A stretch of 55,839 nt of DNA from Gracilibacillus lacisalsi DSM 19029 (lineage in GTDB: Bacteria > Bacillota > Bacilli > Bacillales > Amphibacillaceae): contig NZ_KB898664.1 in the NCBI RefSeq assembly GCF_000377765.1, positions 311,329 to 367,167 on the forward strand. The letters are read 5' to 3'. The position numbers and the translations under genes were made by a program. Positions within the stretch are counted from its first letter, which is position 1. The number at the start of each line of letters is the position of its first letter. Shown here in pieces: positions 6,505-52,748 of the stretch. Below the pieces are notes generated by a model. That model was given only the letters and a program-made list of their open reading frames with translations. It made no database searches and was not told the DNA's origin.

Positions 6505-6939
6505 CTAAAAAATATCTACGAAGATGATCCAATGAAACAAAGACCCGGTTATTTTACCGATCACAATTGCCATTAATAACCATAGTAATTCTTTATCTAT
6601 CCCTAATCTTTTCATCAAAATTGGAAAAACATTTAATACTTCTGTTAATGCAGCAGCCAACATTCCAATAAAAATACCGTGTAATAACCCCCAGAAACCT
6701 AAGATGTAAACTGGAAGGTTCAACGTCCACTCTGTGAAGGATAAATATGTACCTAGTAAGGCACCAACGATAACACTTGCTTGATAATGTTTCATCCAGT
6801 CAATTGATTTACTTAGCTGGACTAATCTCGGTATAATTCCTAATACAGTTAAAAAAGCTACAAAGCCCGCACCTACCATTAGCCCTGATCCAAATCCTAT
6901 TGCGATTTCCACTACAATATATACTATTTCACGAGTCAT
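6505..6939 (-). CDS. spoVAB: Stage V sporulation protein AB
   Basis: A small polytopic membrane protein of 144 residues (B. subtilis 141) with four predicted helices. It matches SpoVAB in the head (GFGSGLMVGAGFVAFLTVLG, then IIPRLVQLSK) and the tail (GIDKELLWLLMAIVIGKITG). In Bacillus it belongs to the sigma-G-dependent spoVA operon, required with other SpoVA proteins for dipicolinic acid uptake or germination. The start overlaps the end of spoVAA by 11 nt, so translation is probably coupled; the ribosome site is weak. Confidence 0.88.
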   Translation of the reverse strand: MTREIVYIVVEIAIGFGSGLMVGAGFVAFLTVLGIIPRLVQLSKSIDWMKHYQASVIVGALLGTYLSFTEWTLNLPVYILGFWGLLHGIFIGMLAAALTEVLNVFPILMKRLGIDKELLWLLMAIVIGKITGSLFHWIIFVDIF

Positions 6940-7546
6940 TGCGCTTATTTAGAACATTCTCATGATATATTAAATAATGATCAAGGTCCTGTTGATAGTT
7001 AAACATTTCAACTTCTAACGGGCTTGGTTCTTCATTGAAACGTTTTTTGAAAATATGGTTAAAGAAAAGGATCATCCCTAAGCCTAAACCGATTGAATAG
7101 GGAATTTGAATCCATAGTGGTTTATTCTGTTGTTCCCCTGTTAACAAGAAATACAACCCTTGATGTACCTCTTCCATACTGACATCATAATGGAAATTCA
7201 TAATCGCCATTGCAGAACCAATGCAAAGAAGTAGCCAGATTAACAGGATTAAAAAGATATTAGCTTTTTTGTCATTTTTTTTAATCTCTACAATTACTTG
7301 ATTTGAGCCTAACAATTCAACACTAAGGAAAGGATAAGTTTCTACTAGGGTATCTAATAAATGGAAACCATCAATAACAGAAACATTTTGATCTTTCTCT
7401 GTAATTTGATAAATTTTTAAAGTTTTTAATTCTTTCAGATAATCAATATTTCCGGTGATAAAGGCAATATCGTTTAAAGTAATTAAATGTTGTTTATCCA
7501 CTTCAATCTTTTTTTTGAGTCGTATATATACTTTTTCTTCCTGCAC
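6929..7546 (-). CDS. spoVAA: Stage V sporulation protein AA
   Basis: The product (205 residues, B. subtilis 206) has a soluble N-terminal half with VYIRLKKKIEV and LKIYQITEKDQNVSVID, then two hydrophobic helices (about residues 95-115 and 145-165) and a soluble tail. This agrees with SpoVAA, the first gene of the forespore spoVA operon. The start is GTG at 7546, with AAGGA about 9 nt upstream; the ATG two bases upstream is out of frame. A sigma-G-like promoter lies about 50 nt ahead. Confidence 0.88.
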   Translation of the reverse strand: MQEEKVYIRLKKKIEVDKQHLITLNDIAFITGNIDYLKELKTLKIYQITEKDQNVSVIDGFHLLDTLVETYPFLSVELLGSNQVIVEIKKNDKKANIFLILLIWLLLCIGSAMAIMNFHYDVSMEEVHQGLYFLLTGEQQNKPLWIQIPYSIGLGLGMILFFNHIFKKRFNEEPSPLEVEMFNYQQDLDHYLIYHENVLNKRNDS

Positions 7547-7596
7547 ATTACATCATCCTTTAACTTTTAGCTTGCTTGTGAGGAAAATGGTGTTCT

Positions 7597-7626
7597 TAGT
7601 ATAAGTTGATTTTAAATATTCATTCA
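7597..7626 (-). promoter_or_regulatory. Sigma-G/sigma-F-like promoter of spoVA
   Basis: On the minus strand, TGAATG (7621-7626) and TATACTA (7597-7603) are separated by 17 nt. This resembles the sigma-G consensus (TGAATA - 17/18 - CATACTA) and lies about 50 nt before the spoVAA start. spoVA is a known sigma-G operon in B. subtilis. Confidence 0.55.
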
Positions 7627-7671
7627 TAACAGCACAGAAAAACAACACACTCTATTTAGAAATGTAGGTAC

Positions 7672-47588: not shown

Positions 47589-48410
47589 TTAATGATCTAA
47601 TGCCTGGTGTGATTCTGCTACTATTTTTTCTGTTAAGGCCAAGAAGTCGGTTTCCTCGCTTGTTTCGTCTCTGGATTTCCCCAATAAGCCCAGATATTCG
47701 ATGTTGCCGTCGCCTCCAGTTATTGGTGAAAATGTAACATCCAGAATTTGAAACCCTGTTTCTTTAGCAAAAGTCAATATATTTTGTAATACTTGTAAAT
47801 GGATGGACGGATCTCTCACAATTCCTTTCTTCCCAACTTGTTCTCTTCCAGCTTCGAATTGTGGCTTGATTAAGATTACCGCCTGACTGTCTACTGATAA
47901 CAAATGAAAGAGCGGTGGTAAAATTAAGCGTAAAGATATGAAAGAAACATCTACTGTAGCAAAATTAGGTATCTCCTTCGTAAGCATATCTGGTGTTACG
48001 TATCGAAAGTTGGTTCTTTCCATAACAACTACTCTTGGATCATTTCGCAATTTCCAATCTAATTGGTTGTAGCCCACATCAATTGCATAGCTCAATCTAA
48101 CTCCGTTTTGTAATGCACAATCTGTAAATCCACCAGTAGACGAACCTACGTCAACCATTACTTTATCGTTTAAATTTAACGAAAAATATTCAATCGCTTT
48201 TTCAAGTTTTAATCCACCACGTCCAACATATGGTATCGCCTTACCTTTTATATCAATCGGGATATCATCTTTCACCTTAGTACCAGGTTTGTCCATACGT
48301 TGCCCTTCAGAAAAGACAAGGCCAGCCATGATCGTTCTTTTTGCCTTCTCCCTGGATTCACTTAAGCCGCGATCAACTATTAATTGATCTAATCTAATTT
48401 TTTTACTCAT
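47589..48410 (-). CDS. tlyA: TlyA-family rRNA methyltransferase (YqxC)
   Basis: The 273-residue protein has an N-terminal S4 RNA-binding domain (IRLDQLIVDRGLSESREKAK) and an FtsJ-like Rossmann methyltransferase domain (VMVDVGSSTGGFTDCALQNG as the SAM-binding motif, then KPQFEAGREQVGKKGIVRD). TlyA enzymes 2'-O-methylate 16S and/or 23S rRNA in some bacteria, and members are also annotated as hemolysins; the target here is inferred. It starts 6 nt after dxs, in the isoprenoid operon order seen in Bacillus. Confidence 0.92.
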   Translation of the reverse strand: MSKKIRLDQLIVDRGLSESREKAKRTIMAGLVFSEGQRMDKPGTKVKDDIPIDIKGKAIPYVGRGGLKLEKAIEYFSLNLNDKVMVDVGSSTGGFTDCALQNGVRLSYAIDVGYNQLDWKLRNDPRVVVMERTNFRYVTPDMLTKEIPNFATVDVSFISLRLILPPLFHLLSVDSQAVILIKPQFEAGREQVGKKGIVRDPSIHLQVLQNILTFAKETGFQILDVTFSPITGGDGNIEYLGLLGKSRDETSEETDFLALTEKIVAESHQALDH

Positions 48411-48416
48411 TATTCA

Positions 48417-50315
48417 TCATGCCCTTTTTTGCTTATCATTACTTACGGCTAATAACTTTTTTAGTTCGACAACTATTTGTTCTTTTGTTAAGTCGATTTC
48501 CTCCAGTAATTCTTTGACATTACCGTGCTCAATATATCGATCAGGGATGCCCATTCTTTTGATTTGCGGATGATAATTATTTTCTTCTGCAAATTCAAGT
48601 ATCGCAGAACCAAAACCACCTTTAAGTACTGCTTCTTCCACAGTTAATATCGGTATATTTTTACGCATTCTGTCATGCAATATTTGTTCATCCAACGGCT
48701 TAATGAACCTTGCATTAATGACTTCAACTTGAACACCTTGCTTTTGCAAAAATTCACTCGCAGCAAGAGACATAGCAATGGTAGTACCAAATGTTAAAAT
48801 AACTGCATCGGTTCCTTGTTTTAATACTTCCCATTGACCAATCGGCAATGTTTTTAAATCTTGATCCATTTCTACACCTAATCCATTTCCTCTTGGGAAC
48901 CGTACAGCAATAGGTCCTTCATTATAAGAAATAGCAGTGTTTACCATATGCTGGCACTCATTTTCATCTTTCGGCATCATAATGACCATGTTAGGTAAAT
49001 GGCGCAAGAAAGCAATATCAAAAACTCCTTGATGTGTTTCACCATCAGCACCTACTAATCCCGCACGATCAATTCCGAAAGCAACGTTCAAGTTTTGCCG
49101 ACAAACATCATGAACTAATTGATCATATGCCCTTTGTAAAAATGTGGAATATATCGCCAGAAAAGGTTTCATACCTTGTGTTGCCAGACCCGCAGATAAT
49201 GTGGTGGCATGTTGTTCAGCAATTCCCACGTCAAATAAACGATCTTGATATTTTTCCTGGAATTTATCCAGTTTGGACCCAAGTATCATAGCTGGTGTGA
49301 TTACAGCAAGGCGTTCATCTTTTCCAGCAATATTTTCTAATGTATCACTGACAACTTGGCTCCAAGCTGGTGCCGAATTAGCAGGCTTAATTTTTTCACC
49401 TGAATCGATTTTATAAGGACCTACCCCATGCCATTTATCTTTCTTATCAGATTCAGCAGGGTAATAGCCTTTTCCTTTTTGCGTGATTACATGAACAAGT
49501 ACAGGGCCTTGTGTTTTCTTGGCATATGCAATATTTTCTTCTAAATCCTTAAAATCATGACCGTCCACGGGGCCAAAATAGGTAAAACCAAATTCCTCAA
49601 ACAACATACCCGGAACCATAAAATATTTCATACTATCCTTCACTCGTTCCGCTGTTTGAGCAATCATACCACCGACTGCCGGAATTCTCTTTAGCAGGAT
49701 TTCTAACTCATCTTTAACACGATTATATTTACCGGCACTTCTCATTCTTCCCAACGCATTATGTAATGCCCCGACATTGCCTGCGATGGACATTTCATTA
49801 TCATTGAGTATAACCGTGATATTTTTCTTTTCGTGACCAATATGATTTAGTGCTTCCAACGCCATACCACCTGTTAAAGCACCATCGCCAATAATAGGAA
49901 CTACATAATTATTAGCTTGTTTCATATCACGAGCAATCGCCATGCCCATGGCTGCAGACAGAGATGTTGAACTGTGTCCTGTTTCCCAAACATCATGTTC
50001 ACTTTCCGTCATTTTAGGAAAACCACAAAGTCCTTTATACTGTCTCAAGGTATCAAATTGCTCTGTACGTCCTGTCAGCATTTTATGAATATAAGATTGA
50101 TGTCCGACGTCAAAGATTAATTTATCTTCAGGACTATTAAATTGTTTGTGCAATGCAAGCGTTAGTTCTACTACACCTAAATTAGCTCCTAAGTGACCGC
50201 CCGTTACCGATAATTTTTCAATCAGAAACTGACGTATTTCACCAGCTAAGAGCTCTAGTTCTTCCGTGTTTAATTGTTTAAGAAATGTTGGATTTTTGAT
50301 CCTGGTTAGATCCAT
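48417..50315 (-). CDS. dxs: 1-deoxy-D-xylulose-5-phosphate synthase
   Basis: ThDP enzyme joining pyruvate and glyceraldehyde-3-phosphate, the first step of the MEP isoprenoid pathway. It has about 632 residues. Motifs: [36 protein letters not shown], ThDP motif [18 protein letters not shown]...[27 protein letters not shown] (catalytic E), [15 protein letters not shown] and a transketolase C-terminal domain. ATG 50315 has GGAGG 8 nt upstream; the reading from 50342 is less likely. It lies next to oapA and supplies precursors to ispA upstream in the same operon. Confidence 0.97.
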
Positions 50316-50350
50316 GAAGGAATCCTCCCTACTATTATTCAAGATTCGCC

Positions 50351-50929
50351 TTATTTATTCGACAATACTTTTATTTTAAATTTTTCTTCTAAAAATGCAA
50401 TTATTTTACCAACAATAAAAATAATGTTGGTTGAAGAGTGAATGGCTAAGAACTTCCCCAACGCCTTTCCTCCAACGGTTAAAGCTGCTACAAGGCTTGT
50501 AAGAATGACGTTAATGGATAAATGAAAGGAGGTACCTTCCGCATAACCAAACCCATTCGAAATTTGCAATACTACAATTGCAGATGCTGTCCCACTTATT
50601 ATACCAGAAATGTCTCCAATCACATCATTACAAAAGCTGGCAAACCGATCAGCGTTTCTGACAATTTGTATCGCTTGCTTGGAACCGCTTACCTTCTCTG
50701 CTGCCATTGCGTGAAATGGAACTTCATCTGCAGCAGTTGCTGCTATCCCTAGCATATCAAAAAACACACCGATAAATACAATAATAAATACGATCACTAA
50801 ACCAATGATCGACATTACACCACTTAATATCGAAGAAGACACTATTGAAAAAATAGCCGCTAACACAAACGTGATAACGGCAATGCTTAAACTGAATTTT
50901 ATCGACTTTTGTAATTGTTTTTTATCCAT
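50351..50929 (-). CDS. oapA: OapA-like OLE RNA-associated membrane protein
   Basis: A 192-residue protein with four hydrophobic segments (~10-32, 38-60, 104-125, 138-160) and a charged C-terminal end. Between segments 2 and 3 lies [18 protein letters not shown], then [20 protein letters not shown], and [17 protein letters not shown] follows. Its place immediately downstream of the OLE RNA and upstream of dxs is that of OapA, the inner-membrane protein that binds OLE RNA in Bacillus halodurans. I assign it by position, size and topology together. The middle region also recalls CNNM/CorC DUF21 modules; see findings. Confidence 0.83.
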
Positions 50930-50974
50930 ATCAAAACCCCGTTAACTGGTTACATTATGTAGCAGGAATGGAAT

Positions 50975-51590
50975 GGTCACTTAAAAGGTAAAAACTGCGG
51001 CTTAGGTCCAGTAGGTTTTCCCAGACAGGTACCGAGTGTTGCCACTCTGGCGGTTCCCCTTTAAACCTGTCTTAGCGCAGTCACCCAACGCTAGACTGGA
51101 TTACCACTTAGTCCGCACTATAATCCCTTTTAAATGTCCTCTTATGGAACAGTCTAGGAGATTTCCTCAACAACCCTTAACCGTTCCCTAGCCTCTTTTG
51201 CAGTACGAATTTCATACAGAAAAACATGTCCTTAACTAGTGGCCATCCAGTTAAGAACACTTTGTTGCCTGTAATCCCCTTCGCACCACTCAAGGCAGGC
51301 TACGCTACGAATAAGGGTTTCCCCAACCCTTATTACATAGGTTCATACCCCATTCCATACTTTATTCTTGGCTAAGAATAAAATACAGAGATGGGCCTCC
51401 GCGGAAGAAGGGTCGTCGCCCACATGCCTTTGTGGATCGCCCTTCAACCTTAACTCCCAGCATCGACCCAAGGCTGGGCGCCTCAAGCCGACACAAGGAA
51501 CTTCATCGATGTGCCCTTTGGCGGATTTTTAGGCCCGCCTTCAGAAACGGAGGATTGACTAGAATACTGCACCATCCCATTGACTTACTT
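50975..51590 (-). ncRNA. ole: OLE RNA (ornate, large, extremophilic)
   Basis: About 610 nt of GC-richer, highly structured, non-coding sequence lies between ispA and oapA. Visible stems (plus coordinates): ggcgg 51520-51524/ccgcc 51535-51539; cccagc 51456-51461/gctggg 51473-51478; gaaggg 51407-51412/cccttc 51440-51445; tttattctt 51361-51369/aagaataaa 51374-51382; aataagggtt 51310-51319/aacccttatt 51325-51334; cttaact 51231-51237/agttaag 51249-51255; agacaggt 51023-51030/acctgtct 51065-51072 with gagtg 51034-51038/cactc 51043-51047. Size, synteny and the OapA neighbour identify OLE, known in extremophilic Firmicutes. Boundaries are approximate; the 3' end runs toward oapA without a clear terminator. 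Confidence 0.87.
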
Positions 51591-51592
51591 TA

Positions 51593-51621
51593 AATATAAC
51601 ATGTTTCTTGTTTTTTCACAA
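51593..51621 (-). promoter_or_regulatory. Sigma-A-like promoter of OLE RNA
   Basis: On the minus strand TTGTGA (51616-51621) and TATATT (51593-51598) are separated by 17 nt in the gap after ispA. Initiation would fall near 51586, just before the first structured stretch. Read-through from ispA is also possible. Confidence 0.55.
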
Positions 51622-51626
51622 TATTA

Positions 51627-52511
51627 TTACTGGTTTCGTTCACTTAAATAGCTACTTATCAAAGCCAGATCGGTATTTTCTAATCCGACTTTCTGCAAGC
51701 ATCTTGCTGCTTCTTTAACATATTTCGTTTTATATTGTTTCGCTCCTTCTAATCCCATTATGCTTGGATATGTGCTTTTTTCATTATCAACATCACTGCC
51801 TACGCGTTTACCGATTATTTCCTGATCACCTTCGATATCTAAAATATCATCTTGAATTTGAAATATGATACCAAGGTAATCACCAAATTTCTTTAGTGTT
51901 TCCATTTTATCTAGTGAGACGCCTGCTAAGAATCCACCTATTTCTACCGCAAATGAAATAAGCCTTCCAGTTTTCAAATGATGGATTCTTTCTAAATTCG
52001 AAATCGATATAGTCTGATTTTCTGCTTCCATATCCAAATATTGCCCTGCTACCATTCCTTCTAAACCGCTTGCTTTCGATAATTTGGTAATGATGCTAAC
52101 TTTTTCTTGATCGGTATATAAATTTGAAGTTGTAATGACATGAAAACTATTCGTGAGTAGGCCATCTCCTGCTAAGATAGCGGTGGCTTCGTCATACTTT
52201 TTGTGATTAGTAAGTTGTCCCCTGCGATACGTATCATCATCCATCGCAGGGAGGTCATCATGTATCAAGGAATACGTGTGAATCATTTCTAATGCTACTG
52301 CAGCAGGATATACCTTCTCCGGATCTCCACCTAGTCCTGTACAAGTTAGTTTCATCAAAAGCGGACGTAACCTTTTTCCTCCCGCTTCAATGGAATATAG
52401 AACAGATTCTCTTAATCGATCAGGTATATCTAGTCTTGTAATATAAGAAGTTAAAGCATTATTTAATTGTTGCTGTTCTTTATCTAATAAATTTTGCAAT
52501 GATTGATCCAC
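51627..52511 (-). CDS. ispA: Farnesyl diphosphate synthase (geranyltranstransferase)
   Basis: Condenses IPP with DMAPP/GPP to farnesyl diphosphate. The 294-residue protein has the first aspartate-rich motif in LIHDDLPAMDDDTYRRG, the second in FQIQDDILDIEGD, and GGKRLRPLLM near the start. The start is GTG 52511, with AGGAGG about 8 nt upstream, directly abutting the xseB stop. The downstream order ispA-OLE-oapA-dxs places OLE inside the isoprenoid gene cluster, as known for OLE-bearing genomes. Confidence 0.96.
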   Translation of the reverse strand: MDQSLQNLLDKEQQQLNNALTSYITRLDIPDRLRESVLYSIEAGGKRLRPLLMKLTCTGLGGDPEKVYPAAVALEMIHTYSLIHDDLPAMDDDTYRRGQLTNHKKYDEATAILAGDGLLTNSFHVITTSNLYTDQEKVSIITKLSKASGLEGMVAGQYLDMEAENQTISISNLERIHHLKTGRLISFAVEIGGFLAGVSLDKMETLKKFGDYLGIIFQIQDDILDIEGDQEIIGKRVGSDVDNEKSTYPSIMGLEGAKQYKTKYVKEAARCLQKVGLENTDLALISSYLSERNQ

Positions 52512-52748
52512 TTAATTTTCCTCCTGGATTTCGAAGCTAGAACGTTCGTTATCTTCACGTAAAATTTCTTTCATTTGTTTCTCGGCATTTACTAACTTAT
52601 CATGGCATATTTTCGATAGTTTGGAACCTTCTGCATAATACTCCATTGCTTTTTCTAACGGAACTTCCCCTTCCTCCATCTTGTTGACAATCGATTCTAA
52701 TTGGGCTAATGCTTCTTCAAATGATAATTCCTTCTTTGTTTCACTCAT
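52512..52748 (-). CDS. xseB: Exodeoxyribonuclease VII small subunit
   Basis: Small helical subunit (78 residues) that assembles several copies on XseA. The conserved core SFEEALAQLESIVNKMEEGE, VPLEKAMEYYAEGSKL is intact. Its start overlaps the xseA stop by 4 nt (ATGA) and its stop abuts ispA, so translation is tightly coupled. Confidence 0.96.
   Translation of the reverse strand: MSETKKELSFEEALAQLESIVNKMEEGEVPLEKAMEYYAEGSKLSKICHDKLVNAEKQMKEILREDNERSSFEIQEEN

Follow-up and report, generated by a model that had tools for sequence, protein, structure and literature searches.

We find a full-length OLE RNA gene on the minus strand of a 55,839-nucleotide stretch of the Gracilibacillus lacisalsi DSM 19029 genome (hereafter the window), an identification that we regard as practically certain. 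To our knowledge, OLE RNA ranks with the largest and most conserved of those bacterial RNAs whose biochemical function is not known. In the explanation that we favor as a whole, at a probability of about 0.55, the OLE gene would have its own promoter, its RNA would form a dimer and join the protein OapA in a membrane complex with a metal and stress role, and it would not serve as an accessory of the isoprenoid enzyme Dxs. Membrane location, protein contacts, stress phenotypes, and the RNA dimer have been published for other species.

Using cmscan (Infernal), all 4227 families of Rfam 15 were scanned against the whole window. The only match at the gathering threshold is OLE (RF01071, gathering score 50), which is complete over model positions 1-616 and is the single OLE copy in the genome.

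50957..51591, minus strand: OLE RNA gene (RF01071, full model); cmscan 540.4 bits, E 9.8e-156; covariation over 112 sequences

With permissive settings, a scan of 50300-52600 yields three more matches to other families, all of them weak, below threshold, and outside OLE. The original prediction, made from the sequence alone, had named OLE RNA on this strand, and the other features that it described are also observed. No open reading frame of at least 60 amino acids (ATG, GTG, or TTG starts) overlaps 50957-51591, agreeing with its claim of no credible coding sequence; the G+C content of the OLE region is 47.7%, as against 35.7% window-wide; and the many local helices with a long-range closing domain correspond to 18 helices of the Rfam structure, closed by a helix at 51136-51126 / 50988-50978. 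Its boundaries of 51590-50975 held approximately, the model placing them at 51591-50957. The model does not set the precise ends of the RNA, since the Rfam structure assigns no pairs to its first 53 and last 21 positions.

The structure was examined across relatives by applying the Rfam structure to 112 distinct OLE sequences aligned with MAFFT, with kinship uncorrected. These sequences come from 129 loci with both end motifs (80 named and 49 other), chosen for the best OLE match or the closest relationship to OapA, together with a spread picked by hand, a choice that favors intact copies; two oapA-centered cuts of OLE loci (L031 and L032), a remnant (L113), and a longer cut of the L122 place (L140) were excluded. 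Identity to the window's copy ranges from 0.65 to 0.96. On the window sequence the structure has 158 pairs, 154 of them standard, and over the 112 sequences 15926 of 17053 cells (93.4%) hold standard pairs, versus 6772 to 7664 of approximately 17000 (40-45%) in slid controls with the 3′ partners moved 1 to 3 columns. Changes on both sides occur in 111 of the 158 pairs, versus 53-68 in the slid controls. The closing helix is 97.6% paired with double changes in 10 of its 11 pairs, and the weakest helices are the one below the kissing loop and the outer part of P6, as given in the list below. The minimum free energy is -255.4 kcal/mol against a shuffle mean of -197.5 (standard deviation 5.6; z -10.3), and none of 20 dinucleotide shuffles folds as well. 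Stem and loop names are our mapping from the text of PMC12286853.

51520..51539, minus strand: hairpin taken as P4/L4, with loop UAAAAA (51531-51526); stem 100% paired; name mapped from PMC12286853
51454..51500, minus strand: helix taken as P5; 20 pairs, 99.5% paired, 9 with double changes; name mapped from papers
51403..51449, minus strand: helix taken as P6, the bS21 site in Halalkalibacterium halodurans; outer part 80.9%, inner part 100% paired
51349..51395, minus strand: helix taken as P7; 17 pairs, 90.4% paired, 15 with double changes
51305..51340, minus strand: helix taken as P8; 13 pairs, 89.9% paired, 11 with double changes
51191..51296, minus strand: P9 arm, with terminal self-complementary loop UGGCCA (51245-51240), taken as the L9.3 kissing loop; terminal helix 71.8% paired
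50978..51136, minus strand: 3′ domain, holding the hairpins taken as P12.2/P13 (OapB site); site names from papers

Conservation is not confined to the helices: among the 112 sequences it reaches 98% or more in 273 of 635 columns, unpaired stretches included. Such conservation would fit a ribozyme for a still unidentified reaction, as the Breaker group argues from size and conservation (PMC11332333). However, no catalytic activity is reported in the literature examined, and contacts with proteins and within the dimer explain part of the conservation; we therefore consider a ribozyme unlikely.

The dimer contacts are suggested by two loops. In the cryo-electron microscopy dimer of Clostridium acetobutylicum OLE, the L4 and L9.3 loops bridge both chains (PMC12286853). 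The UAAAAA loop is present in 112 of 112 distinct sequences, and the P9.3 loop contains GGCC in all 112 and the complete six-base palindrome in 90. Given this conservation and the structure from the other species, the OLE RNA of the window, which takes the known fold, probably pairs with a second copy via its UAAAAA and UGGCCA loops.

The helix taken as P6, which here carries CUUCUUCC, bears on a further proposal, that OLE acts mainly by keeping bS21 off ribosomes, imitating the Shine-Dalgarno/anti-Shine-Dalgarno duplex, and thereby tunes translation under stress. In H. halodurans P6 binds bS21, and in cold and in ethanol losing bS21 has the same effect as deleting ole (PMC12054373); the window's genome also has a bS21 gene. 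The anti-Shine-Dalgarno string CCUCCU found in P6 of H. halodurans is, however, absent from the P6 3′ arm here and present in only 4 of the 112 OLE sequences, and as a general OLE feature it was rejected. In the same source, mutants M1-M3 alter CCUCCU, keep the pairing, and still bind bS21, whereas binding is weaker when the neighboring conserved G-C pairs are inverted; these pairs are retained here. Since CCUCCU is rare and M1-M3 still bind, the mimicry is probably a local feature, with recognition through the conserved G-C pairs. With these pairs in place, the point counts against mimicry as a general rule and not against bS21 binding, and we find the bS21-holding proposal quite unlikely.

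The position of OLE among isoprenoid genes has invited a different explanation. The gene order on the minus strand is ispA-OLE-oapA-dxs-tlyA, and oapA starts 28 bases downstream of the OLE match.

51627..52511, minus strand: ispA, polyprenyl synthetase (PF00348, E 1.3e-59)
50351..50929, minus strand: oapA, membrane protein of 192 amino acids, in the same 111 family genomes as OLE; predicted fold nearest CNNM/CorC/CorB
48417..50342, minus strand: dxs (PF13292, E 6.3e-119)
47589..48410, minus strand: FtsJ-like methyltransferase with an S4 domain (PF01728, PF01479), which we take to be tlyA

We surveyed 159 genomes of the family (G000-G158), the full yield of searches set to take up to 300, in which OLE was scored with stricter filters that can lose weak copies, dxs was called at PF13292 scores of at least 280 bits (the next best score being 60), and the presence/absence statistics ignore kinship. 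OLE is found in 111 genomes, CNNM in 149, HMG-CoA reductase in 110, and dxs in 54; the presence tables were compiled by hand, and their totals for OLE, CNNM, and HMG-CoA reductase match the search counts. The window's genus accounts for 17 of the genomes, the window's own among them, and all 17 carry OLE. HMG-CoA reductase is present in 105 of the 105 dxs-less genomes and in 5 of the 54 with dxs, a pattern that, from the dxs and HMG-CoA reductase searches alone, suggests a switch to the mevalonate pathway within one family. OLE is kept in 42 of the 54 dxs-bearing and in 69 of the 105 dxs-less genomes (one of the latter being the remnant in G078 described below), and therefore does not depend on Dxs. 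The term isoprenoid operon in the original prediction thus stands for position, the order ispA-OLE-oapA-dxs being borne out by the PF00348 and PF13292 flanks and by an OapA match in each of the 111 OLE-bearing genomes, but not for function.

The same separation is seen at the locus. All 80 named loci contain the OLE 5′ motif, ispA, oapA, and tlyA; dxs lies between oapA and tlyA in 60 of them and is missing in 20, where ispA-OLE-oapA is intact. In a FastTree tree of XseA, IspA, and TlyA these 20 loci form two groups (support 0.94 and 1.0), and dxs loss amounts to two changes under parsimony with midpoint rooting. With two tree groups lacking dxs at the locus, OLE-oapA therefore stays when dxs goes, and OLE would not be an accessory of the adjacent-encoded Dxs enzyme. 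A link to IspA may still exist, because ispA adjoins OLE in all 80 named loci. A link to Dxs has been suggested in print from gene order (PMC10898510), and the ispA-dxs position here and in the 60 loci would fit an OLE that assists or regulates the making of isoprenoid precursors through Dxs or together with it; but given the dxs-less genomes and tree groups that retain OLE, and the 12 genomes with dxs and no OLE, we judge this role very improbable. The terms dxs, isoprenoid, mevalonate, ispA, and operon are absent from the main text of PMC11332333, and we found no literature joining OLE RNA with mevalonate or with Gracilibacillus, a weak negative as subscription papers fall mostly outside coverage.

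We also considered whether OLE loss follows dxs loss, an idea raised from 8 of 11 hand-picked OLE-less or decaying genomes that lack a true Dxs. It was rejected over the 159 genomes (both OLE and dxs, 42; OLE alone, 69; dxs alone, 12; neither, 36; Fisher p 0.15). Separately, one genome (G123:C7:424045-426184) has two adjacent strong matches to the dxs N-domain downstream of oapA, a possible dxs duplication.

Expression of OLE would be driven from the gap between ispA and OLE.

51593..51621, minus strand: putative sigma-A-type promoter; -35 TTGTGA (51621-51616), 17-nucleotide spacer, -10 TATATT (51598-51593)

A TG one base before the TATATT gives an extended -10, and the element ends at 51593, the OLE match beginning at 51591. 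An extended -10 (TG-n-TAnnnT) ending 13 to 26 nucleotides before the conserved UGGUGCAGUAU is observed at 112 of 112 distinct loci, and at 90 of them it is accompanied by a -35 with at least 4 of 6 matches. Applied to control windows 100-900 nucleotides upstream of the motif, taken only from loci with enough upstream sequence and not composition-matched, the -10 test succeeds in 148 of 5626. An OLE promoter of its own is stated for H. halodurans (PMC9723947), and from the conservation we infer that a sigma-A-type extended -10 promoter serving OLE itself very probably lies between ispA and OLE. It seems hardly credible that the region, directly upstream of oapA and on the same strand, is instead a leader that regulates oapA or the operon after it in cis, as OLE alone and no riboswitch family reaches threshold, the minus-strand terminator-like sites listed fall inside OLE or oapA with none between, and H. 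halodurans OLE is seen as an RNA of ~630 nucleotides (PMC9723947).

OapA matches occur in 112 of the 159 genomes, and the one in excess of OLE, in G131 (E 4.1e-4), falls in a 442-amino-acid frame of which the same segment also matches CNNM. Within these searches, none of the 159 genomes has one of OLE and OapA without the other. The window OapA is closest, among named proteins, to those of Gracilibacillus, with up to 94% identity in the best segment (G. suaedae). In G078 (L113:4797-5790) we observe a 394-nucleotide OLE remnant (133.8 bits) with most of the 3′ part gone, followed between ispA and tlyA by an oapA with several stops; TGTTATAAT (promoter -10) is still upstream. This genome is in transition, with OLE and oapA decaying together. 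At another locus (G109; L140, oapA on the minus strand), an intact OLE of 508.6 bits accompanies an oapA with a frameshift at approximately residues 118-135, either real or a sequencing error.

In the one structure model made, that of OapA, the nearest fold of the predicted structure is CNNM/CorC/CorB. An anticorrelation of OLE and CNNM has been published (PMC11332333), and the counts in the 159 genomes agree with it: CNNM matches per genome, counted irrespective of domain architecture, average 1.62 in OLE-bearing and 2.52 in OLE-less genomes, and 61 of 111 OLE-bearing versus 3 of 48 OLE-less genomes have none or one. Within genus g26 the OLE-less genomes likewise have more CNNM (p 0.02). OLE RNA as a control part of a CNNM-like metal transporter is an idea of the Breaker group (PMC12265935). 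In such a mechanism OapA, as published for H. halodurans, would hold OLE RNA at the membrane; OapC, bS21, and OapB would bind the k-turn, P6, and P13 regions, contacts also published for H. halodurans and represented here by genes and sites; and OapA would form a CNNM-type membrane module in which OLE RNA replaces the cytosolic control domains of all-protein MpfA transporters. The OapB, OapC, and bS21 genes, usual although not universal OLE partners, are present elsewhere in the genome. Tentatively, and at slightly less than even odds, we take the most likely job of OLE to be that of the RNA component in a metal-ion and stress-response complex at the membrane, with OapA as the CNNM-type module.

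Several observations weigh against this explanation or parts of it. The OapA sequence scores 18.0 bits against Pfam PF01595 (CNNM), under the cut-off of 28.4 (E 0.0023), and for this reason its sequence does not place it in the CNNM family; by sequence it also matches no PDB chain at E ≤1 and no Pfam family at E ≤0.001. A Foldseek comparison of the OapA model with the PDB gave no match at E ≤0.001, and high Z scores can be reached by helical bundles. In genus g24 the OLE-bearing genomes have if anything more CNNM (p 0.08), and H. halodurans tolerates OLE deletion in good conditions (PMC12265935). OLE is missing from 36 of the 105 dxs-less and 12 of the 54 dxs-bearing genomes. Finally, the promoter consensus scan as a whole returned 2 sites versus 3.3 expected, and because there is no excess, a consensus match alone means nothing.

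We also observed a second OapA-like protein, OapA2, of 197-234 amino acids and 41-46% identical to the window OapA. It is intact in five genomes, G034 of the window's genus and G139, G140, G143, and G145 of genus g38; it is broken in G138 and G141, and a short stretch is present in G055. The genes are located as follows.

L133:5614-6207, plus strand: OapA2
L134:5537-6241, minus strand: OapA2
L135:5143-5739, minus strand: OapA2
L136:5604-6215, plus strand: OapA2
L137:5424-6020, plus strand: OapA2

OapA2-bearing genomes also carry OLE and oapA, and no OLE at the gathering threshold lies beside the OapA2 genes in L133-L139 (11-12 kilobases each; L138 has an N stretch). No NCBIfam family matches OapA or two OapA2 proteins at E ≤0.01. 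In G139 a group II intron with a reverse-transcriptase-like open reading frame (L136:2452-4192) lies ~1.4 kilobases upstream of the OapA2 gene. A bolder version of our explanation, which we consider rather unlikely, makes OLE-OapA a self-contained metal-ion unit of the membrane that has its own promoter and works independently of the adjacent isoprenoid enzyme; OapA2 would then either join OapA in a mixed complex around the one OLE RNA or have become RNA-free, as an intermediate between RNA-protein and all-protein transporters.

The OLE RNA of the window agrees in sequence, structure, length, strand, and neighbors with the OLE RNA studied in H. halodurans and C. acetobutylicum (RF01071), and the OapA, OapB, OapC, and bS21 genes and the conserved dimer loops are likewise present. 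It is of the full-length type with P7, P8, and P13, unlike the shortened variants 1 and 2 (PMC11332333). OapA, at 192 amino acids, is too short to contain the CBS and CorC domains of MpfA and other CNNM-CorC transporters, and the genome encodes one CNNM protein besides OapA, in a 443-amino-acid frame. GOLLD and ROOL are likewise large ornate RNAs that form homo-oligomers (PMC12286853), but they are other RNA families, OLE being the window's only gathering-threshold Rfam match.

The window's OLE copy is itself ordinary and adds little. The family, however, provides a natural experiment, with dxs-less relatives that have HMG-CoA reductase, genomes that have lost OLE, and one that is losing OLE and oapA together. 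This comparison argues against the Dxs guess, weakens anti-Shine-Dalgarno mimicry, and identifies genera in which OLE-bearing and OLE-free species can be compared directly.
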